37,322 nt of DNA from Centipeda periodontii DSM 2778. Its GTDB lineage: Bacteria; Bacillota; Negativicutes; Selenomonadales; Selenomonadaceae. Made by a program: the position numbers and the translations under genes. The notes below the pieces were generated by a model. That model had not been told where the DNA came from. It did not search any database and was given only the letters and a program-made list of their open reading frames with translations. Location: positions 1 through 37,322 of the forward strand of contig NZ_GL892076.1 in assembly GCF_000213975.1 (NCBI RefSeq), in the 5' to 3' direction. Every line of letters begins with the position of its first letter. The first letter of the stretch is position 1. Shown here piece by piece: positions 20,479 through 30,743 of the stretch.

Positions 20479-20928
20479 TTACGTGTTAGGGATTTTTTCC
20501 AACTCTTTGCGCCGTGCGCGCGGGGTTTCAAGCCCCTGCGGGTATTCCTGCAAGATCAGCAGGAGATTTGCCATCGTCCGGCTTGGCAGGACCTCCCCCG
20601 ACTCATACTTCTGAAACGCGCGTGCCCCACCGCCGAGGATCGTGCCCGCCTGCTCCTGCGTCAGTCGGAATTTCTTCCGAATGGAGCGGATTTCTGTGGG
20701 GAGCGGAAGTCCTTCCACGCGTGCCTTCAACGTATTCAAGGCTTGATCTGAATACTTCTTATCCTCCTGAGAATGTTCACTCGTTTCTCCATCTGCCGAA
20801 TACCAACCGGGCATATCTACGGTGATACTCTCTCCACGGTAACTCAGTGTCATGGGTCTGACATCACGATGCAGTTCTTCGCCCGTCTCACAACTGGTAA
20901 TAATTTCCTCGACCTCTCTCATTTTCAT
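20479..20928 (-). CDS. MqsA-like antitoxin lacking the N-terminal zinc-finger cysteines
   Basis: 149 residues. Seen: C-terminal helix-turn-helix with the MqsA signature IRKKFRLTQEQAGTILGGGARAFQKYESGEVLPS (about residues 80-120). The N-terminal half has one Cys (about 13) instead of the paired CxxC zinc ligands of E. coli MqsA, so zinc binding looks lost or replaced. AGGAG lies 8 bases before the ATG at 20928. Upstream is a short frame that looks like a collapsed mqsR toxin, so this is probably an antitoxin that has outlived its toxin and may now act only as a repressor. Confidence 0.8.
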   Translation of the reverse strand: MKMREVEEIITSCETGEELHRDVRPMTLSYRGESITVDMPGWYSADGETSEHSQEDKKYSDQALNTLKARVEGLPLPTEIRSIRKKFRLTQEQAGTILGGGARAFQKYESGEVLPSRTMANLLLILQEYPQGLETPRARRKELEKIPNT

Positions 20929-22246: not shown

Positions 22247-22413
22247 TAGGAATCGCTGATAAAATGAAGTCCGTCAGATTGGTGTAGATTTTTTCGTCCG
22301 ATTGAGGAGGCAAACCGGACGCAGAGTGGTGCTCTGTGGAGGATTTGCCGACGAAAAGCGGGCAAAAAAGATGCGTCAAGATGATGGCGCTGAATTTATC
22401 AGTGCTTCCCTTA
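22247..22413 (+). repeat. 165-bp palindromic repeat, copy 4
   Basis: Same family, central hairpin CAGAG/CTCTG. TTA lies at both ends (22246-22248 and 22411-22413). It is directly downstream of the unknown gene 22423-22935 and in the same orientation as copy 5 on its other side. Confidence 0.93.
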
Positions 22414-22422
22414 GCTTCTATG

Positions 22423-22935
22423 CTATTGTTTCCTCTGCTCCAGCAGATCAAAAACATCATCCACATCCATCTCGAACATCTGACTGTCCGCATCGATCGG
22501 CGCGAAGTAATAGGCGACCTGCTCCGCGCCAAATTCCCGCTCCAGCTTTTCCCACTGCGATGCAGGGAAAACGACAAACGCAAGCGTATCACTGCCGAGC
22601 GAGCCCATATACCAGCGAATTGCATATGCGGGCGCGATGTATTCCTGCGCAGCCTTCAGTGTCGTATCCCTGTCCGCAGCATCTGCCGCATAGGGTATGA
22701 CGCGCACCTCTCCATCCTTTTTCAGCAGGATATCAAAGCCGCGCTCCTCCTCTGCGTCCGTGCATTCGTAGTCAATCTGTGCATTCTCCGGCAGAACATC
22801 GTTCAAATAGGACAGAACACTCTCGTCCTCATCGCCCCAATCCACCCAGATCAGCGCATCACTCGCGTCAAATTCATCCCTCTGCGCAGCCGGGTCGGCA
22901 AGAAAATCATGCACGCTACGAAACAATTCGTCCAT
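22423..22935 (-). CDS. Acidic protein of unknown function bracketed by repeats
   Basis: 170 residues, not recognised. Seen: no signal peptide or membrane segment; strongly acidic, with many Asp/Glu and aromatic residues; motifs ALIWVDWGDED (about 27-37), ALAYAIRWY-like central part and FVVFPASQWEKLEREFG (about 120-136). The size, acidity and solitary position resemble immunity or SMI1/KNR4-type small proteins, but this is only an impression. GAAGGAG lies 9 bases before the ATG. TATAAT (22980-22985) with a weak TGGACT (23003-23008) may drive it. It sits alone between repeat copies 4 and 5. Confidence 0.72.
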   Translation of the reverse strand: MDELFRSVHDFLADPAAQRDEFDASDALIWVDWGDEDESVLSYLNDVLPENAQIDYECTDAEEERGFDILLKKDGEVRVIPYAADAADRDTTLKAAQEYIAPAYAIRWYMGSLGSDTLAFVVFPASQWEKLEREFGAEQVAYYFAPIDADSQMFEMDVDDVFDLLEQRKQ

Positions 22936-23056: not shown

Positions 23057-23219
23057 AGGAAGCACTGATAAAATAGACCTTACGATTGGCGTAGTTTTTT
23101 TCGTCCGATTGAGGAGGCAAATCGGACGCAGAGTGGTGCTCTGTGGAGGATTTGCAAGCGTTGTGCGGGTAAAAAAGATGCGCCAAGATGATGGTGCTGA
23201 ATTTATCAGTGCTTCTCTA
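23057..23219 (+). repeat. 165-bp palindromic repeat, copy 5 (divergent copy)
   Basis: The most diverged copy: both ends are of the GGAAGCACTGATAAA type, giving better terminal inverted repeats than the others. The hairpin CGTCCGATT...AATCGGACG is fully paired, where copy 1 has CCGGTT...AACCGG, a compensated change. It lies 2 bases after the aldolase stop. Confidence 0.9.
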
Positions 23220-23221
23220 AA

Positions 23222-23941
23222 TCAAAGGAGTCGATGCAGCCGATCGAGCGCATCCTTAACACGCTTCGGATCGGTCCGCCCCGTTTCCTTGTCGACAAAC
23301 GCCGTGTAGATATGCGGGATGATAATTTCCGCACCATTCTCCAGGCAGGTCTTTACCACCGCTTCAACATTATCTCCGTTGATGCCGCCCGTCGGCTCGA
23401 ACACGGTGACACCTGCGGCAACGGCAGCACGCACCATTGCGGCGACTTCATCGAGATGCTGATCGCCGCCGATCGGATAGAACTTCACCGAGGGGATGTC
23501 GATTTCCTTGAGCGCCGCTGCCGCCGCCGCGCAGCTGACATATTCATCGAATGCCGAGGTCTCGGGTCCTGTCAGGATGGAGACCTTTCCCGCCGTGCCA
23601 CTCGGACGGATGACGGCATTGACCATTGAGTGCTCTGCACCGACAGCACGGAGCGCCGCAACGGTGTAGCCCGCCCCCGGATAGACTTGGTTGACATGCA
23701 CGGGTTTTGTGCGCACCGCCGTCTCAGCCACGCGCCGCCACATCGCAGGATCCGCCGCACCGAGCCCGACGGATACGGGTACGCCCGCTTCCTGCATCTC
23801 ATTGACATACGCGACGGCAGCGTCTACGGTCGGATAGGGCTTGACCATGACGCCGATGTAGACCTTGCCCTCTGCGGCATCGACAATTTCCTTCGCGTTC
23901 TTCACATCTGCCGCGAGGATATTCAGTTTGATTTCTGCCAT
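23222..23941 (-). CDS. dagF: KDGP-type aldolase (DagF family)
   Basis: Probably cleaves a 2-keto-3-deoxy-phospho-sugar acid to pyruvate and a triose phosphate. Seen: 239 residues, TIM-barrel with VMVKPYP, VNQVYPGAGYT, GPETSAFDEYVSC, K153 in SVKFYPIGGDQHLDE as likely Schiff-base lysine, and EPTGGINGDNVEAVV. In the Salmonella D-glucosaminate pathway DgaE and DgaF act in series; here the two genes are 1 base apart, which supports the same chemistry. It is the last gene of the nine-gene cluster, ended by repeat copy 5. Confidence 0.87.
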   Translation of the reverse strand: MAEIKLNILAADVKNAKEIVDAAEGKVYIGVMVKPYPTVDAAVAYVNEMQEAGVPVSVGLGAADPAMWRRVAETAVRTKPVHVNQVYPGAGYTVAALRAVGAEHSMVNAVIRPSGTAGKVSILTGPETSAFDEYVSCAAAAAALKEIDIPSVKFYPIGGDQHLDEVAAMVRAAVAAGVTVFEPTGGINGDNVEAVVKTCLENGAEIIIPHIYTAFVDKETGRTDPKRVKDALDRLHRLL

Positions 23942-23942
23942 G

Positions 23943-25058
23943 TTATTTTTTCTCCTTTGCCATACGGACGATCTCTTTCAATCGCTCCGCAATCGTCATC
24001 TCCTGCCCCGCAAGAAGCGGACGCGGATCAACGAAGATCTCTCCCTGCGCAAGTCGATAGTTGCGCGTGTGAATTGCAGGATTGCCGCGCTCGAGCTCCT
24101 TTGCGATCGACGTGGCGGAGATTCCCGTCACCGCCTCATCAATTACGAGCTTCGCACGGTAGATCTCACGTCCCGCCTCGTCCTGTGCAATGCTTCCGCG
24201 GATGCCCGCGACATCCTTCAGCGCCGCTAAAAGGGCATTCATGCGTGCCTTCTGCCCATCGCCGTCCGATGTGCGATCCGCATAACGACGCAGTGCCGTG
24301 AGGAGTCCGATGATGCTCTCCTTGCCGGTCTTCATGGGGCGTCCGATACCCTGATATTGTTTGCGGCACGCCTCAGCAAGTGAGGATGTTCCGCAGATGA
24401 ATCCCGACGTCGGGCCCTCGAGCGCCTTGCCACCGCTGTAGATGACAAGATCGGCGCCCATCGCGATGTATTTATGCAGATCTTCCTCCGCCGCCGCATC
24501 GACAATGATCGGCAAATTATGTCGGTGGGCGATCTCGATCATCTCCGCTAGGGAAACCATGCCCTTCTGCACGGCATGATGCGATTGCACATAGAGGAGC
24601 GCCGCTGTCCGGTCGTTGATGGCGTTCTCAACATTCACCGGTGCGACGAGATTGGCGTAGCCGACCTCGACAGGGTGTCCGCCGCCGAGACGAATCATCT
24701 GCGTGATAGACGCACCGAAATTGACGGCATGTCCCTTTTGCAGGATGATCTCGTGTGGTAGCCCCGTGCTGTCCGGGAGGCGCTCGATGAGATCGACATT
24801 CGTGCCACTGATGACCGCCGCCACTGAGATTGCGATCCCGGCCGCAGCTCCGCACGTCGGGCATCCATCCTCTGCGCCCGTTGCACGCGCAATGGCGCGT
24901 CCCGCCGCCGGCAAAAGCTCCTCGATCTCCACATAGTCCATCGCTGCCTGTCCCATCGCCTCGGCAACGGCAGGCGCGACCGCACTCGCACCGAGCACGG
25001 TCATCTTGCCGCAGCCGTTGATGACCTGACGTGGTCCGTACTGTTCAAATATACTCAT
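23943..25058 (-). CDS. dgaE: DgaE-like PLP-dependent ammonia-lyase (SelA-like fold)
   Basis: Likely removes water and ammonia from a 2-amino-2-deoxy-sugar-acid phosphate, giving a 2-keto-3-deoxy product for the aldolase. Seen: 371 residues; NGCGKMTVLGAS start; CPTCGAAAGIAISVAAVISG; VDAAAEEDLHKYIAMGADLVIYSGGK with PLP lysine K211; GPTSGFICG. This is the DgaE branch rather than selenocysteine synthase, because no selA/selB context is visible and the aldolase is adjacent. The exact substrate is inferred from the Salmonella dga pathway. The GC-poor 15-base gap from the DUF4310 gene indicates one operon. Confidence 0.86.
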   Translation of the reverse strand: MSIFEQYGPRQVINGCGKMTVLGASAVAPAVAEAMGQAAMDYVEIEELLPAAGRAIARATGAEDGCPTCGAAAGIAISVAAVISGTNVDLIERLPDSTGLPHEIILQKGHAVNFGASITQMIRLGGGHPVEVGYANLVAPVNVENAINDRTAALLYVQSHHAVQKGMVSLAEMIEIAHRHNLPIIVDAAAEEDLHKYIAMGADLVIYSGGKALEGPTSGFICGTSSLAEACRKQYQGIGRPMKTGKESIIGLLTALRRYADRTSDGDGQKARMNALLAALKDVAGIRGSIAQDEAGREIYRAKLVIDEAVTGISATSIAKELERGNPAIHTRNYRLAQGEIFVDPRPLLAGQEMTIAERLKEIVRMAKEKK

Positions 25059-25073
25059 ATCTCTGCCTCATAT

Positions 25074-25748
25074 CTACTGCGAAATGATGGGGAAAAACGA
25101 TCCGAACAGCATCGCACCGAGAATCGCACCACCCGCGATCGGTTTTTTCCACGCGTAAAAGATGGCAGCACCGATCGATGCACCAATTCCGACAGGGATG
25201 GATGCCGATACCGCTGCAATGACAATCAGGGGACCGAGATAGCGCCCGGAAGCGTTGCCCGCCCCCATCATGATATCCGCGCCAAAGGTCGAATTCCCCG
25301 CCGCCACGGTATAGCGGCGAATGAAGATGATGACGCCGCCAATGAGCGCACCGATGCCACCGCCCACGACAAGGGCAAGTGGGAAGGACTCAAGCGGTCC
25401 AATGAGCCCCATGCTGAGCAGAATGGCAGGAATCCCAATGCCGACCCCCGTCATGATGGATCCGCCAATATCCAGAATGCCGACGAGCGGACCTTCCAGA
25501 ATACGCGCGAAGAGAAAGCTCGCACCGAACGCAGCAGCTGCACCATACCCCGCCCCCTCGATACCCGCCTGCAGCATTGCGACGATTGCGATCTCATTGA
25601 ACGCACCGATGTGATGCACATAGTACATATGCGTCCCTGCGAACACGCCAGCCGCAAGACATGCTGTAAAGAGCGGGAAGAGCATTTCCGAAAACCAGAT
25701 ATTTTGTTTCTCCGCCGTCATTTCCATTTCCTCGCGATCCATATTCAT
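25074..25748 (-). CDS. DUF4310-family membrane protein (probable transporter subunit)
   Basis: 224 residues, polytopic, about six membrane segments rich in Gly and Ala (VGGGIGALIGGVIIF; GASIGAAIFYAW). I place it in the DUF4310 family (EF_0833/AHA_3914-type) from sequence character and gene order. Always paired with the DUF4311 protein, it is likely one half of an uncharacterised transporter for the cluster's substrate. The ATG at 25748 overlaps the DUF4311 stop (TGATG); a second ATG two codons later is also possible. There is no ATPase gene in the cluster, so transport is not of ABC type. Confidence 0.8.
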   Translation of the reverse strand: MNMDREEMEMTAEKQNIWFSEMLFPLFTACLAAGVFAGTHMYYVHHIGAFNEIAIVAMLQAGIEGAGYGAAAAFGASFLFARILEGPLVGILDIGGSIMTGVGIGIPAILLSMGLIGPLESFPLALVVGGGIGALIGGVIIFIRRYTVAAGNSTFGADIMMGAGNASGRYLGPLIVIAAVSASIPVGIGASIGAAIFYAWKKPIAGGAILGAMLFGSFFPIISQ

Positions 25749-26530
25749 CACACTCCTGCCTTAAATAGTGCGTGGAACGCCTTCCAGCTCTCCGGCACTT
25801 CGATGTAGAACTGTGTCATCATCTTGAGATCGAACTCGCGGAAGAAACCGCTGAGGACAAAGAGAGCGATGACCGCGACCACCAAGATCCGCGTGATATG
25901 ATTCCATCCGCTGTCCTCGAGTCCCTGCCCGATGAGGATACCGAGCACAATACCCGGAACGGCATTGCCCATGACGAGATGCGACAGACCGCCGAGCACC
26001 GTCGCCCATACGCCCGTCCTGCGTCCCGCATCCAACGCCGCCATCCAGAACACAATCGGCATGACGAGGTTGATGAGCCAGTTCGCTGCCGGAACGAGCA
26101 CCTTCGTCGCGATGAGCTGGAGCGCCTGCGGGATTGCAACCGCCGTCGAGTTCATGATGCCGACGACGAGCGCACCGACCACTGCCCCCGCCATCGCCAT
26201 ACGCGCGGGACTGTGCAATGTCTCCTCAATATTTCGATTGCGTGCAAGCAGCGATGCCGCCGCCCAGTTGGGGATGATGCGATGCGCCACGTCCTGTGTA
26301 AATGCGCCCGCTCCGACAATCGACGCCCACGAGTTGAACAAGAATCCAAGTCCGAAGGAAAAATGCGCGATCGGATCCCCCTCACAGGCATTGAGCTCTC
26401 CAAGGGTACGGAATGCTCCCATCCCCTGTGTCTGCGGTGCACGAAACATGCGTGCCGCACCTGCACCGACGGCAAAGCCGATCAGACCTCCGATCACGAG
26501 GGACTTTATCAAAATCTCAACAAAATCCAT
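25748..26530 (-). CDS. DUF4311-family membrane protein (probable transporter subunit)
   Basis: 260 residues, about six to seven membrane segments. Seen: N-terminal LVIGGLIGFAVGAGAARMFRAP; a conserved-looking loop GELNACEGDPIAHFSFGLGFLFNSW; VMGNAVPGIVLGILIGQGLEDSGW. I place it in DUF4311 (EF_0832-type). The polar loop with Glu, Cys, Asp and His inside a membrane protein is a candidate substrate site. It overlaps the DUF4310 gene. The pair resembles in layout PTS IIC/IID or a two-subunit secondary transporter, but no homology to those was recognised. Confidence 0.8.
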   Translation of the reverse strand: MDFVEILIKSLVIGGLIGFAVGAGAARMFRAPQTQGMGAFRTLGELNACEGDPIAHFSFGLGFLFNSWASIVGAGAFTQDVAHRIIPNWAAASLLARNRNIEETLHSPARMAMAGAVVGALVVGIMNSTAVAIPQALQLIATKVLVPAANWLINLVMPIVFWMAALDAGRRTGVWATVLGGLSHLVMGNAVPGIVLGILIGQGLEDSGWNHITRILVVAVIALFVLSGFFREFDLKMMTQFYIEVPESWKAFHALFKAGV

Positions 26531-26545
26531 GAACCATACCTCCTT

Positions 26546-26884
26546 TTACCGCATCTCCAAAACATGACGTGCTACCGACAGTTTCTCCCGATCCTCGCGG
26601 TAGGGAATGCTGCCGGGCAGAACGCTGCACACGGAAACAGTGACCTGTGCGCGAATCGTATAGAGCTTTCGCTCGCGTGGAAACAAGATTCCCATAAACT
26701 TCTCTGTATAAATGCGAATCGAAGCATCCACGATTTTCATATCCCTCGGCTCGATCCGCAGAAGAATCTCACCACCCTGTACTTCAAGGCGCGGCTTGAC
26801 CTGCCCGAGAATGTGCTGCAGTGCCTCTCGTTCCGTTTCCCCCTGTCCTTCCAGCAGCAGGGTTTCCTCCCGATGCGACAGCAT
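26546..26884 (-). CDS. DUF4312-family small protein
   Basis: 112 residues, soluble, alpha/beta. Seen: EETLLLEGQGETEREALQHILGQ at the N-terminus and KFMGILFPRERKLYTIRAQVTVSV in the middle. I place it in DUF4312 (EF_0831-type) by gene order and size. Function unknown; being always next to the membrane pair suggests a cytoplasmic subunit or accessory factor. The ATG at 26884 has AGGGAGG 8 bases before it; an ATG two codons earlier is too close. The longer frame upstream runs antisense-like into the SFCGS gene and is rejected. Confidence 0.76.
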   Translation of the reverse strand: MLSHREETLLLEGQGETEREALQHILGQVKPRLEVQGGEILLRIEPRDMKIVDASIRIYTEKFMGILFPRERKLYTIRAQVTVSVCSVLPGSIPYREDREKLSVARHVLEMR

Positions 26885-26897
26885 TGTCATCGCCTCC

Positions 26898-27260
26898 CTA
26901 TTTTGCTTTCGTGTCGAGATATGCCTCCACGAGGCGCTGTCCCAGCTCTTCCTTATCCATGAAGCCAAAGCCGACCACACGTGCCCCGTTCTTGATCGCA
27001 GTGACTCCGGCATCGATCGACCGCAGACCGAACTCGACGGCGTATCCGTGCTTCGTCTTCGCCGTGATGGCACCCGCACCGCCGCTCCCACAGAACGAGA
27101 TGCCGAAATCAGCATCGTGCTCCTTCATCGTGTCGCCGATCTTCATGTCCGCACCAACCCCCTTGATGAGGATTGCCTCGCCCCCCGCAGCTTCGACCCC
27201 TGCGGCAACTTTCTGTCCTTTGCCCAGACGATCTCCGATAACAACTTTTACCTTGCTCAT
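26898..27260 (-). CDS. Glycine-rich SFCGS-family protein (EIIB-like Cys loop)
   Basis: 120 residues. Seen: N-terminal VKVVIGDRLGKGQKVAAGV, then ISFCGSGGAGAITAKTKHGY with Cys57 in a Gly/Ser loop, then a C-terminal helix. The name SFCGS comes from this motif. The Cys followed by a Gly/Ser turn after a beta-strand recalls the phospho-Cys loop of PTS EIIB proteins, and the cluster has PRD/EIIB regulation; whether Cys57 is phosphorylated is a guess. AAAGGGG precedes the ATG. Family corresponds to EF_0830 as I recall it. Confidence 0.8.
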   Translation of the reverse strand: MSKVKVVIGDRLGKGQKVAAGVEAAGGEAILIKGVGADMKIGDTMKEHDADFGISFCGSGGAGAITAKTKHGYAVEFGLRSIDAGVTAIKNGARVVGFGFMDKEELGQRLVEAYLDTKAK

Positions 27261-27282
27261 GACATAGTCCCCTTTCTAAAAT

Positions 27283-27636
27283 TCAGAACCCCTCGGCAGC
27301 GCACTGCAGATGGATTGCAAGCAGCACTACTTCAGAAGAGCGCCGCATTGTGTCCCCCTCCTCGGAAAGCTCCCACAAGATCGTGCGGCTCTGCTCTACA
27401 CAGGCGGGATCGATCTGCGCCATGGTGTCCTCATCCAGCTCCTCCAGCTGCTCTTTGCGTGCAGATCGGTTGACCACCTCCGCCATATGGTGCCCCATCG
27501 CAAGCCAACGCTCCCGCGGGATGGCAATGTCTCCCAGTGCAGCCGCAATCGCCGCAAGTCCCTGCTGCAATCGCTGCTCTGAATTGCAGCTTTGACGCTC
27601 CGCCTCTAGGATCTCCTGCCAGATCTCATCGCTCAT
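27283..27636 (-). CDS. Stand-alone PRD-domain protein
   Basis: 117 residues, a single PTS-regulation domain without DNA- or RNA-binding part. Seen: first phospho-His site at H49/H50 in MGHHMAEVVNR, second at H109 in VVLLAIHLQ. Similar short PRD proteins (EF_0829-type, E. coli YhfY) occur in related clusters. It could buffer or relay phosphorylation to the cluster regulator. The ATG overlaps the amidohydrolase stop (ATGA). Confidence 0.78.
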   Translation of the reverse strand: MSDEIWQEILEAERQSCNSEQRLQQGLAAIAAALGDIAIPRERWLAMGHHMAEVVNRSARKEQLEELDEDTMAQIDPACVEQSRTILWELSEEGDTMRRSSEVVLLAIHLQCAAEGF

Positions 27637-28757
27637 AACAGAGTGACACTCCCTTCACGCACGACACCTTTTACATCAAGTGTCTGATGTCCGCATATCC
27701 TGCAGTCCTCGGCATCGACGTATTCCCGCACCTCATCACACACGGCAAAACGCGTGAGATCGGCGACAGAACCGGCGCGCAGACTGCCGATCTGGGGCAT
27801 GCGCAGGATCGCTGCCGGTCGCGCGGTGACTGCGGCGATTACCTCATGTAGTGTCATGCCGAGCGCCATGCACTTCTCCATCGTATCGGAAAGGCTTCGC
27901 ACCGGAGCCTCGTAGTTCCGACTGTAGAGATCCGTGCTGATCGTATCGACCATGAGCCCGCGCGCATGCGCCTGCCGCATACGGTGAAAGCTACAGCTCT
28001 CCGTGCCGTGCCCGAGATCGATATAGACGCCGCGTCGGAGAGCCGCCTGCAGCTGCGGCAGGATTTCCTCCCGCTCGTTCAGGCAGCCGCCGGGCTTTCC
28101 GTGAAAGATATGCGTCACGACATCACCTGCGCCGAGCAGATCGAGTACATCCGTCAGCTTCGGTGGCTGATTCCCGATGTGAACGAAGACGGGAACTTCC
28201 GCTTTTGCTGCAATCGTCTTGGCACGCCGCAGCCCCTCGACATCCGTGCCCTTTACAACCGAACTGCTCATACGCACCTTGATGCCGCGTATGGATGCGT
28301 TCTCCGCAATGAGACGCAGCGTCTCTTCCTCATCGATCTCACTCAAATCGGCAAGCTCCGATAATCCGTCAAAGAGCCCTGCACGCGAGACATTGAGCCA
28401 CGCAAGGACACGCGTCTTCGCCTTGCTGATGACATGTTCCACAAAGCCGGGAAAGGTTCGCGATCCCGTACTCCCTGCATCGACAATGGTCGTCACCCCT
28501 TGGCGCACACCCACCGTATCCGCATCAATACCGATGACCGCACCATCGGCGACATGGACATGGAGATCGATCCACCCGGGACTGAGATAATCGCCATCGA
28601 TATCAATCACTTCCGCTGCCGCCGGCAGAATCCCACCGCCCGGATAGAGCCCGGCAACCCGCCCGCCCTTGATACCGATATCATATCTTCCATCACGCCC
28701 TGTATAGGGATCCAATACATGCCCGCCAACGAGCAGCAAATCCATTTTTTCCACCAT
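27633..28757 (-). CDS. Amidohydrolase/deacetylase-family metalloenzyme
   Basis: Dihydroorotase-like amidohydrolase, 374 residues (EF_0837/AHA_3915-type). Seen: metal ligands H66-x-H68 in GWIDLHVHVADG; VTTIVDAGSTG; VHIGNQPP; THIFHGKPGG; and DTISTDLYSRN with the likely catalytic Asp; C-terminal small beta-domain (GSLRAGSVADLTRF). Likely opens a cyclic amide or removes an acyl group from the substrate before the DgaE-like lyase acts. A carboxylated lysine cannot be assigned with certainty. The ATG directly follows the regulator's stop codon (TGA ATG); an ATG four codons later is also possible. Confidence 0.87.
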   Translation of the reverse strand: MVEKMDLLLVGGHVLDPYTGRDGRYDIGIKGGRVAGLYPGGGILPAAAEVIDIDGDYLSPGWIDLHVHVADGAVIGIDADTVGVRQGVTTIVDAGSTGSRTFPGFVEHVISKAKTRVLAWLNVSRAGLFDGLSELADLSEIDEEETLRLIAENASIRGIKVRMSSSVVKGTDVEGLRRAKTIAAKAEVPVFVHIGNQPPKLTDVLDLLGAGDVVTHIFHGKPGGCLNEREEILPQLQAALRRGVYIDLGHGTESCSFHRMRQAHARGLMVDTISTDLYSRNYEAPVRSLSDTMEKCMALGMTLHEVIAAVTARPAAILRMPQIGSLRAGSVADLTRFAVCDEVREYVDAEDCRICGHQTLDVKGVVREGSVTLL

Positions 28758-30626
28758 TCATCCCTCCGCTTCCGCAAAATAATTCAAAATTGCCTCCACC
28801 TCGCTGTCTGGCACCTTCGGAGCATATTCTCGAAGTACGTTGCGAATATCTGTCGCAAGATCCGCCATCTCCCCGCCATACATTCTCGACGGAAGAAGCC
28901 CGGCATATGCTGCTCCGCCCGCGAATCGGTTGACGGCAAGGAGGCAGTGTAGCAGGAGTCCTTTCTCCCGCTGCGGTGCAAGACGCCGCCCGGCAGCCTC
29001 CATCACCTGACCAAACAGATTGAATCCGCTGCAGATTACTTCTTCGGCAAACTGATGATAGATCTGCATTTCGTTCGTTCGTACTGGACTTGATTTTTGC
29101 AGAGTGCATTCTCGTGCCTTTGATACAACCCGAAATTCTGCCAGCGTCGCACGAATTTTTTCTACATCCTGCTTCTGCAGGATTGCCTGCACGACGACGC
29201 AGGGGAGATGACTCTGCAGAGGGAGAACACTGATAATAAGCTCCACAGGGTTCTCCGCAACAACACGCTCAACCTCCGCGATGGAGCAGCAACCGACGAT
29301 CTGTAGCACATCAAACGTATTCTGCAGCTGCTTCATGAGCAGCTTGGCCGACGAGATACCCGAACTGCACACAACAAGGGTGCGCACATACGTTTTTCCA
29401 AACAGCGTTTCATAACTTAGCCGGAAATAGAGTACGATGTAGGAGATGTCCCCATCGTGCAGATAGATGTGGGAGGCATCAAACAGATCATAGCAGACCT
29501 GCTTCACCGTTTCGAAGAGCCCGCCAAAGCGCCTGCGGATATCATCGATCAGCGGATTCACATTGATCGCATACGACTGTTTCTTGATCAGAATGCGCCG
29601 CATGTGCAGGAGCAGATTCTCATAGAGCTCCCCGTCCGTTTCAAACGGCACATCCATAACCTCGCTTGTCCGCCGGATCAGCTGCCGCACGAGCCCCTCC
29701 ACCGGGAAATTCTCACCTGCGGCATATGTATGTGCAAGGGGCAGTGCAAGCCAGTCCAGTTCATCCCGTGTGATCGTGAGATCAAAGGCAGCGAAAAGTT
29801 CCTCCAGCCGGTGATCCAATCTTGTCCGCAAATCTGAGTTCCAGTGCACCCCATCTCCGGTTGATTCAATCACGTTACCGCTCCGCACGGCATGAAAGGA
29901 AACACAAATGCGCACAAAGAGTTCCAAGAGTTCCTTTGCCTGCAAGTTCTCTCGCCCAGCCCGCATTTCACGCAAAATAATGCGACAGCCCCGATAGAGT
30001 CGGGAGAACTCTTCTTCCGTCATCAGATAGCAACAAATGGTCGTCTGCAAGGTCTTGGCGTCTGCACCATGCCAAAACTGTGCAATTGTCTTCTCCATAT
30101 CCGGCAGCTCGAACCCAGACAGAATGAAATAGGCAATTGCCTGACGCCTCTTCGACTCTGTCGTCACCAGACGAAGTCCACGATGTGCCCGCCGCTCGAC
30201 ATGGATGTTCCATGCTGTAAAAAATGCGTCAACCGCCTCCATGTCCCGTAGCACGGTATCCTTGCTTACTTGCAGTACATCTGCCATGGATTGCAGCGTA
30301 ATATAATCCCGGGTAAGGAGCATTGTGAAGACTATATGGCGGATGCGTTCACTTGAGAAGGCCGACGGTTTTTGAAGTTCCACATCCATCTTTTGTTGAA
30401 ATGCATACAGGGCATCGGGCTTTGCCTCAAAGGAGAATCCGCGCCGTGCCTGATATGCGAGCGTGACATCCGGCGCATTCTCTGCCAGATATGCACGCAG
30501 CTTCCCGATATCGTATTTGATGCTGCGCTCACTGACGTCGTATTTTTCCATCAATATCTCTGTAGGGATAGGATAAGGAGCATTCAGCAGATCGGCAAGA
30601 ATCTTTCGGCATCGAACATTCAGCAC
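28758..30626 (-). CDS. PRD/EIIB transcriptional regulator (BglG/LicR-like)
   Basis: Regulator of the cluster, 622 residues from GTG at 30626 (GGGAGGAGG 4 bases upstream). Seen: N-terminal helix-turn-helix (about 5-65), Mga-like HTH (about 105-150), PRD1 (about 205-300, with SFHAVRSG), PRD2 (about 310-410, with H341 in LLLHMRRIL) and EIIB-like domain with C420 in VVCSSGISSAKLL. In PRD2 the usual second His is Tyr (about 400, YIVLYF). Instead of a C-terminal EIIA it ends in about 90 residues resembling another PRD (GLLLHCLLAVNRF). It is probably phosphorylated by PTS proteins and activates the downstream operon; no terminator lies between it and the amidohydrolase. Confidence 0.87.
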   Translation of the reverse strand: MLNVRCRKILADLLNAPYPIPTEILMEKYDVSERSIKYDIGKLRAYLAENAPDVTLAYQARRGFSFEAKPDALYAFQQKMDVELQKPSAFSSERIRHIVFTMLLTRDYITLQSMADVLQVSKDTVLRDMEAVDAFFTAWNIHVERRAHRGLRLVTTESKRRQAIAYFILSGFELPDMEKTIAQFWHGADAKTLQTTICCYLMTEEEFSRLYRGCRIILREMRAGRENLQAKELLELFVRICVSFHAVRSGNVIESTGDGVHWNSDLRTRLDHRLEELFAAFDLTITRDELDWLALPLAHTYAAGENFPVEGLVRQLIRRTSEVMDVPFETDGELYENLLLHMRRILIKKQSYAINVNPLIDDIRRRFGGLFETVKQVCYDLFDASHIYLHDGDISYIVLYFRLSYETLFGKTYVRTLVVCSSGISSAKLLMKQLQNTFDVLQIVGCCSIAEVERVVAENPVELIISVLPLQSHLPCVVVQAILQKQDVEKIRATLAEFRVVSKARECTLQKSSPVRTNEMQIYHQFAEEVICSGFNLFGQVMEAAGRRLAPQREKGLLLHCLLAVNRFAGGAAYAGLLPSRMYGGEMADLATDIRNVLREYAPKVPDSEVEAILNYFAEAEG

Positions 30627-30743
30627 AAAACCTCCTCCCTTCTGAAGAATCATTCTTTTTCCATTATTATATAATTGAAATCATAAATATAAAATATGAA
30701 CTTTTTGCCCTCTCTCCCCTGCAAAGCACTCATTTTCACGCAC

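Follow-up and report, generated by a model that had tools for sequence, protein, structure and literature searches.

The minus strand of a 37,322-nucleotide stretch of Centipeda periodontii DSM 2778 (contig NZ_GL892076.1; the whole stretch is called the window hereafter) carries, between 23222 and 30653, nine intact open reading frames (ORFs), and the operon that they form is real. We propose, with a probability of about 0.68, that five of the encoded proteins (a stand-alone PRD protein, an SFCGS protein and the DUF4312, DUF4311 and DUF4310 proteins) constitute an importer coupled to the phosphoenolpyruvate-dependent phosphotransferase system (PTS), which phosphorylates its substrates as they are taken up and is among the best studied bacterial transport systems. 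The operon as a whole probably imports a modified amino-sugar acid and then degrades it to pyruvate and triose phosphate. Uptake is probably PTS-coupled because the clusters of relatives contain the PTS proteins HPr and Enzyme I, an association overlooked in an earlier interpretation of this DNA (the sequence-only reading). Gene content, conservation, modularity, the linkage to HPr and Enzyme I, gene fusions and residue invariance were computed directly, and from these we infer transport and phosphotransfer.

The gene set recurs, with two main gene orders, in 65 genome loci (31 non-proteobacterial, 34 from Pseudomonadota) across Bacillota, Pseudomonadota and Actinomycetota and is therefore not a product of chance; nine further loci were added for the HPr search. 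The set is already catalogued in NCBIfam as the hypothetical equivalogs EF_0829-EF_0839 / AHA_3910-3917 (TIGR03577-TIGR03583), conserved and of unknown function, and the names that the sequence-only reading had given for it are indeed those of these models. HPr and Enzyme I were called by profile search on the strand of the cluster, and part of the matches was checked by Pfam; the profile catches the GIHSRPA form that is missed by a motif scan. In 22 of the 31 non-proteobacterial loci HPr accompanies the cluster on its strand. The chance expectation, calculated from locus length, genome size and the number of HPr copies, is 0.41, a figure that ignores relatedness. HPr was also identified in two of the nine further loci (L117 and L120). 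Enzyme I is present in 11 of the 65 loci and in L117, and five of these 12 assignments (L016, L017, L022, L048 and L050) were confirmed by Pfam. A quick DUF4311 tree (74 rows) requires at least six changes of the HPr label, two of which are forced by strongly supported (starred) branches.

The position of the PTS genes varies among these loci. In nine Paenibacillus loci (L014, L016-L022 and L070) the order is HPr-Enzyme I-regulator, with gaps of 0-47 bp between HPr and Enzyme I and of 13-197 bp between Enzyme I and the PRD regulator; a 579-aa Paenibacillus ORF that precedes the regulator proved to be PTS Enzyme I. HPr stands 16-67 bp ahead of the regulator in L011, L013, L023 and L024, and 173 bp ahead of it in Fusibacter (L069; Pfam E 1.5e-24, no match to the motif expression). 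The order aldolase-HAD-HPr-Enzyme I is found in Desulfosporosinus (L048) and G455 (L117), and aldolase-HPr-Enzyme I in Hungatella (L050). In G012 (L120) HPr follows the aldolase; a candidate Enzyme I on the opposite strand there was not reproduced at E 1e-6. Three Chimaeribacter loci (L047, L049 and L056) have an HPr gene on the opposite strand some kilobases off and were excluded from the count.

All six actinobacterial loci contain HPr, against 0.031 expected. It is located 62-157 bp past the lyase gene in Streptomyces L062, L063 and L065 and is fused to the DgaE-like lyase in L057, L060 and L066, three of the six. None of the six has a match to the PRD regulator, yet each retains one stand-alone PRD protein together with HPr. 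Because these loci without a regulator match keep HPr, fused to DgaE in three cases, HPr is not there solely for the regulator. Enzyme I scored above cut-off in all 55 genome entries searched, 51 with DUF4311 (one genome entered twice; 46 of the 65 loci covered) and four with YhfT, and in seven of 14 control genomes; HPr was present in 32 of 32 genomes searched. The proteobacterial genomes searched possess Enzyme I, and in the genome of the window itself HPr and Enzyme I lie side by side at C1:299795-301869. Co-occurrence of Enzyme I is by itself weak evidence; genetic linkage is the strong part.

According to the gene maps of the 65 loci, the constant part of the cluster comprises the genes for the PRD protein, SFCGS, DUF4312, DUF4311 and DUF4310; the amidohydrolase and lyase are almost always there, and the PF07071 aldolase is variable. 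Three loci, L011 and L013 (Paenibacillus) and L115 (Bacillota), consist of the regulator and the five-gene part, with no enzymes recognised nearby, and in L011 and L013 the HPr gene ends 16 bp ahead of the regulator, which places HPr beside the importer. In L024 the enzyme genes form a block with a GntR regulator gene and a gene for a PfkB protein resembling 2-keto-3-deoxygluconate (KDG) kinase; 187 bp separate the end of this block from HPr, the PRD regulator and the five genes, and the whole array lies on a single strand. L023 has the same layout, judged by gene size. Based on the enzyme-free loci and this block layout, we regard the five genes as one machine separable from the enzymes. DUF4310 and DUF4311 had been named in the sequence-only reading as the sole transporter candidate, and no other membrane protein is evident in the operon, but the transporter is probably more than this pair because the PRD protein, SFCGS and DUF4312 accompany the pair even in the enzyme-free loci and are probably importer parts as well.

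DUF4311 was found in none of 13 other genomes sampled from the genus of the window's organism, and the nearest relatives seen belong to Propionispira (83-84% identity). Providencia stuartii NCTC11800 encodes SFCGS and DUF4312 as a single 225-aa ORF (L026:9281-9958), which may be a genuine fusion or reflect an indel in the sequence record. Brevibacillus daliensis has a second tandem copy comprising the amidohydrolase and the five importer genes without lyase and aldolase (L015:1805-5510). The DUF4311 match of L116 (G612:C1:242116-242751) is broken by a TAG stop and perhaps represents a decayed copy.

The stand-alone PRD protein and SFCGS are the candidate relay proteins. Residues H50, R57, E102 and H109 of the PRD protein are identical in 69 of 69 rows, and E62 in 66, in a family otherwise diverged (16-46% identity to the protein of the window). 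We take H50 and H109 to be phosphorylation sites, in line with established knowledge of PRD domains. The C57 residue of SFCGS, positioned in a glycine-rich loop, is present in 72 of 72 rows. Comparison by hhalign relates SFCGS to DUF2620/YhfU (P 4.4e-5, Cys conserved) and to RpiB (P 4e-5, Cys aligned on Cys), with unrelated control profiles giving P 0.02 to 0.6 (0.02-0.5 for the four set against the RpiB comparison). RPI_actino was matched at 1.2e-5, below cut-off, and a PDB search alone gave a weak result (E 1). The RpiB cysteine aligned with that of SFCGS serves as the catalytic base, and an isomerase role for SFCGS is possible on this similarity. SFCGS is, however, shorter than the RpiB/LacAB isomerases with which it aligns and stays with the permease. 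No EII family was detected for the PRD, SFCGS, DUF4312, DUF4311 or DUF4310 proteins in Pfam to E 1 or NCBIfam to E 0.001.

AlphaFold models of the two membrane proteins were obtained as single chains from shallow alignments. That of DUF4311 contains eleven helices and has a mean predicted local distance difference test score (pLDDT) of 85.9, and that of DUF4310 a pLDDT of 70.6. Neither single-chain model has a Foldseek match in the PDB at E <=0.001 (best VIA Z 4.6 each), which does not imply a new fold. No convincing homologue of known structure was identified for DUF4312.

For the enzymes, the sequence-only reading had deduced removal of an acyl or cyclic amide group, elimination of ammonia and then aldol cleavage. 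Similarity to enzymes that have been solved or characterised supports this order, with the ammonia leaving by beta-elimination. The chemistry fits, but the phosphate and the energy source had been overlooked: the lyase and aldolase families use 6-phosphorylated substrates, and the window operon is without a kinase. Across all 65 rows the lyase retains R301, R332 and R346, the K211 residue that binds pyridoxal phosphate (PLP) and both histidines of the loop; the rows are the window and lyase ORFs >300 aa, with the gene of the window entered more than once and fused forms counted in. In PMC9529869, manual docking puts the 6-phosphate of the substrate near the same three arginines. Streptomyces L057 encodes an Eda-type aldolase for 2-keto-3-deoxy-6-phosphogluconate (KDPG; PF01081) and has no PF07071 match. 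In L048, L112, L114, L117 and L118 the gene after the aldolase encodes a Cof-type HAD phosphatase; Chimaeribacter L047 has a lactonase, with same-size ORFs in L049 and L056; and L012 contains a cellobiose-type EIIC and a chitin-disaccharide deacetylase from 228 bp downstream. The arginine conservation, KDPG aldolase, HAD phosphatases, lactonase and deacetylase together fit a phosphorylated amino-sugar acid derived from an N-acyl, lactam or lactone precursor.

A substrate other than an amino-sugar acid, with lyase and aldolase shifted in specificity, is rather unlikely and would be compatible with PTS-coupled uptake. The window lyase passes the broader subfamily TIGR01437 but, at 436.8 bits, misses the 600-bit cut-off of the DgaE equivalog; the aldolase falls below that of NF047796, the DagF equivalog (246.8 of 300 bits), and COG3964 amidohydrolases reportedly may act on esters of alpha-hydroxy acids. 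The unchanged catalytic Lys/His residues and arginine triad and the substitution of a KDPG aldolase for the usual one in L057 argue instead for the amino-sugar acid, although we would give the exact substrate as proposed slightly less than an even chance.

The most closely related characterised system is Salmonella dgaABCDEF, with which the window operon has the lyase and aldolase families in common and for which PTS phosphorylation before the lyase step is predicted, according to PMC9529869. DgaABCD is a mannose-family EII, going by the title of the Miller 2013 reference listed there. In the operon described here five unrelated proteins stand in place of DgaABCD, and the amidohydrolase is added.

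Our working model, which we put forward tentatively, is an EII-like complex with no part homologous to known EIIA, EIIB or EIIC, in which phosphate would pass from HPr to the PRD protein, from there to the RpiB-like cysteine of SFCGS and on to the sugar acid via DUF4311/DUF4310. An N-acylated (or lactam or lactone) amino-sugar acid such as D-glucosaminate would be taken up by PTS-coupled group translocation, with phosphate delivered from phosphoenolpyruvate through Enzyme I and HPr, encoded by the chromosomal ptsHI of this genome, to the five-part importer. The stand-alone PRD protein would be the histidine acceptor, taking the part of EIIA, and SFCGS the cysteine carrier, taking that of EIIB; the odds of this specific HPr-PRD-SFCGS relay appear to us a shade below even. 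DUF4311 and DUF4310 would operate in the membrane together with DUF4312. The amidohydrolase would then deacylate the 6-phosphorylated acid, the DgaE-like lyase would deaminate the deacylated phosphate to KDPG, and the DgaF-type aldolase would cleave KDPG to pyruvate and glyceraldehyde-3-phosphate; the order of deacylation and phosphorylation is presumed.

The E. coli yhfSTU-php-yhfWXYZ operon may hold a cousin of this importer, because SFCGS is homologous to YhfU; the proposal draws on the homology of two parts, YhfU/DUF2620 being similar to SFCGS and YhfY to the stand-alone PRD protein, and on one HPr linkage. YhfT, in contrast, has no detectable similarity to DUF4311 or DUF4310, and the enzymes differ. 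The YhfT loci analysed number twelve, eleven of them from Bacillota and one (L073) from E. coli. A DUF2620 gene occurs in the yhfT run in all twelve and is directly adjacent in 11, a PRD protein could be identified in all but L135 and L136 (10 of 12), and the cysteine motif is present in 10 of the 12 DUF2620 proteins, the expression being unmatched in the same two loci. E. coli YhfY contains the first PRD histidine motif, and the second was not found. The HPr linkage is seen in L138:9310-17499, a yhf-type run, complete in other respects, whose last gene has its end overlapped by a gene for HPr; the run comprises PRD, DUF2620 and YhfT genes and, judged by eye, php and YhfS-, YhfX- and YhfW-type genes. 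The length of YhfT and a weak PF14188 match in the E. coli control had suggested a DUF4311-DUF4310 fusion, which we rejected as there is no profile similarity; another weak PF14188 match (L007) resembles, by eye, an AbgT-type carrier, so the E. coli match may be noise. Similarly, a 575-aa DUF2620 ORF in G683 was considered as a YhfU-YhfT fusion and contains no YhfT match.

Several observations weigh against PTS-coupled import by the five proteins. Neither HPr nor Enzyme I is encoded within the operon in the window or in any of the 34 proteobacterial loci, no HPr was found inside the 20 kb examined around the enzyme-free L115, and 11 of the 12 yhf-type loci, E. coli included, have neither protein in the stretch examined. 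SFCGS is closest to RpiB, an isomerase, and not to EIIB: we tried it as an EIIB homologue by hhalign against the EIIB stretch of the regulators and obtained P 0.054. No fold match to the single-chain models backs a permease role for DUF4311 or DUF4310, and the contact between the lyase arginines and phosphate is based on the manual docking of PMC9529869. A KDG-kinase-like PfkB gene lies beside the amidohydrolase, lyase and aldolase genes and ahead of the importer genes (L024:4551-5576), a gene of the same size occupies the same place in L023, and the PfkB hints at a second, non-phosphorylating route. HPr, finally, could act only in phosphorylating the stand-alone PRD protein as a regulator.

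This last point leads to a reading in which DUF4310/4311 would work as a conventional permease, either secondary or with some other source of power; the PTS proteins would phosphorylate only PRDs that control its expression or activity, and a kinase elsewhere would phosphorylate the substrate. HPr classically exerts regulation through PRD domains, most clusters contain a PRD regulator, and the PfkB kinase of L024 adjoins the enzymes. We nevertheless consider it unlikely: the actinobacterial loci without a regulator match keep HPr, even fused to the lyase; that kinase is the single one found in the operon runs of the 65 loci, among the 14 Pfam-scanned of 54 unassigned ORFs, a sample that leaves room for a kinase in other runs; and SFCGS would be left without a place. 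Import of an already phosphorylated amino-sugar acid with no kinase or PTS step, SFCGS being an RpiB-like isomerase acting on it, would suit the phosphate-dependent kinds of lyase and aldolase and the SFCGS-RpiB alignment including the cysteine, but is very improbable, as it leaves HPr and Enzyme I in the cluster and the invariant PRD histidines unexplained and SFCGS stays with the importer in enzyme-free loci.

If PTS-coupled import by the five proteins is correct, it would add a new permease family to the PTS, whose EII permeases fall in few families, would place a PRD domain in relay work beyond regulation alone and would give functions to five conserved families (DUF4310, DUF4311, DUF4312, SFCGS and the stand-alone PRD protein). 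Should the relay hold, by the same logic YhfY-YhfU-YhfT, which E. coli shares with many Bacillota, would be another PTS that has escaped recognition; for the yhf operon of E. coli K-12, as yet uncharacterised, this offers a hypothesis open to testing. By comparison of model names rather than full notes, the linkage to HPr and Enzyme I and the PTS role are additions to the cluster catalogued in NCBIfam. A literature search, conducted mostly without subscription papers, returned nothing on DUF4310-4312 or the six TIGR/Pfam accessions, which does not imply absence from print, and nothing relevant-looking on EF_0829-0833, SFCGS/DUF2620, the stand-alone PRD protein or a novel PTS permease.

The features of the operon are listed in the table. 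The compact arrangement described in the sequence-only reading was borne out, with two of the eight gene junctions being 4-base overlaps and the others 0 to 22 bp. The end of the regulator gene was corrected: the earlier end at 30626 is an in-frame GTG nine codons inside the ORF, which starts at 30653. A single transcript is likely because a promoter-like site and a preceding terminator-like hairpin lie before the first gene; an Rfam scan of the window gave no RNA element at gathering scores.

Table. Features of the minus-strand operon and its upstream region in the window.
Feature	Coordinates	Strand	Evidence
Regulator (HTH_11, DeoR-like helix-turn-helix, PRD, EIIB-like stretch, C-terminal PRD-like stretch)	28758..30653	-	Pfam PRD 3.7e-11, HTH_11 3.9e-10
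Amidohydrolase/deacetylase, EF_0837 type	27633..28757	-	NF006689 399 bits (cut-off 371); similar to PDB 8wzy, 2ogj, 2ics
Stand-alone PRD protein, candidate phospho-acceptor (EIIA-like role)	27283..27636	-	TIGR03582 4.2e-7, below cut-off; 3nuf profile match
SFCGS protein, candidate phospho-cysteine carrier (EIIB-like role)	26898..27260	-	TIGR03577 185.6 bits
DUF4312 protein, accessory	26546..26890	-	PF14189 3.1e-20; ATG start at 26890, GGGAGG upstream
DUF4311 membrane protein, permease candidate	25748..26530	-	PF14188 1.3e-113
DUF4310 membrane protein, permease candidate	25074..25751	-	PF14187 7.1e-98
DgaE-like PLP ammonia-lyase	23943..25058	-	TIGR01437 473 bits; PDB 7lc0/7lce E 1.1e-99
DgaF-type KDGP aldolase	23222..23941	-	PF07071 2.7e-70, 237 bits (cut-off 26.7); PDB 3nzr E 6.7e-48
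Promoter-like site TTTATA-16-TATAAT, directly upstream of operon	30666..30693	-	10/12 consensus match alone
Terminator-like hairpin, 5' of promoter-like site	30774-30751		

Among the NCBIfam models, TIGR03577, TIGR03580, TIGR03579, TIGR01437, TIGR03581 and NF006689 were matched above cut-off by the operon proteins, and the EF_0829 PRD (30 of 69 bits), EF_0831/DUF4312 (63 of 90) and EF_0837 (329 of 432) models below it. DUF4312 is above its Pfam cut-off. The stand-alone PRD protein is below that of Pfam PRD (14 of 23 bits, E 0.06), and its PRD nature is based on TIGR03582 and on a family profile that matches PDB 3nuf at 6.6e-23. The EIIB-like stretch of the regulator has no Pfam score and was read from the sequence, its cysteine being present in 37 of 56 regulators; the last PRD-like stretch was likewise assigned by sequence reading alone. 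A direct repeat of 144 nt, with copies 88% identical (22268-22411 and 23075-23218), flanks a small gene at 22423-22935 immediately downstream of the operon. Further along the minus strand, 20479-20928 encodes a short protein that we take, by eye, to resemble an MqsA-type antitoxin with a C-terminal helix-turn-helix.

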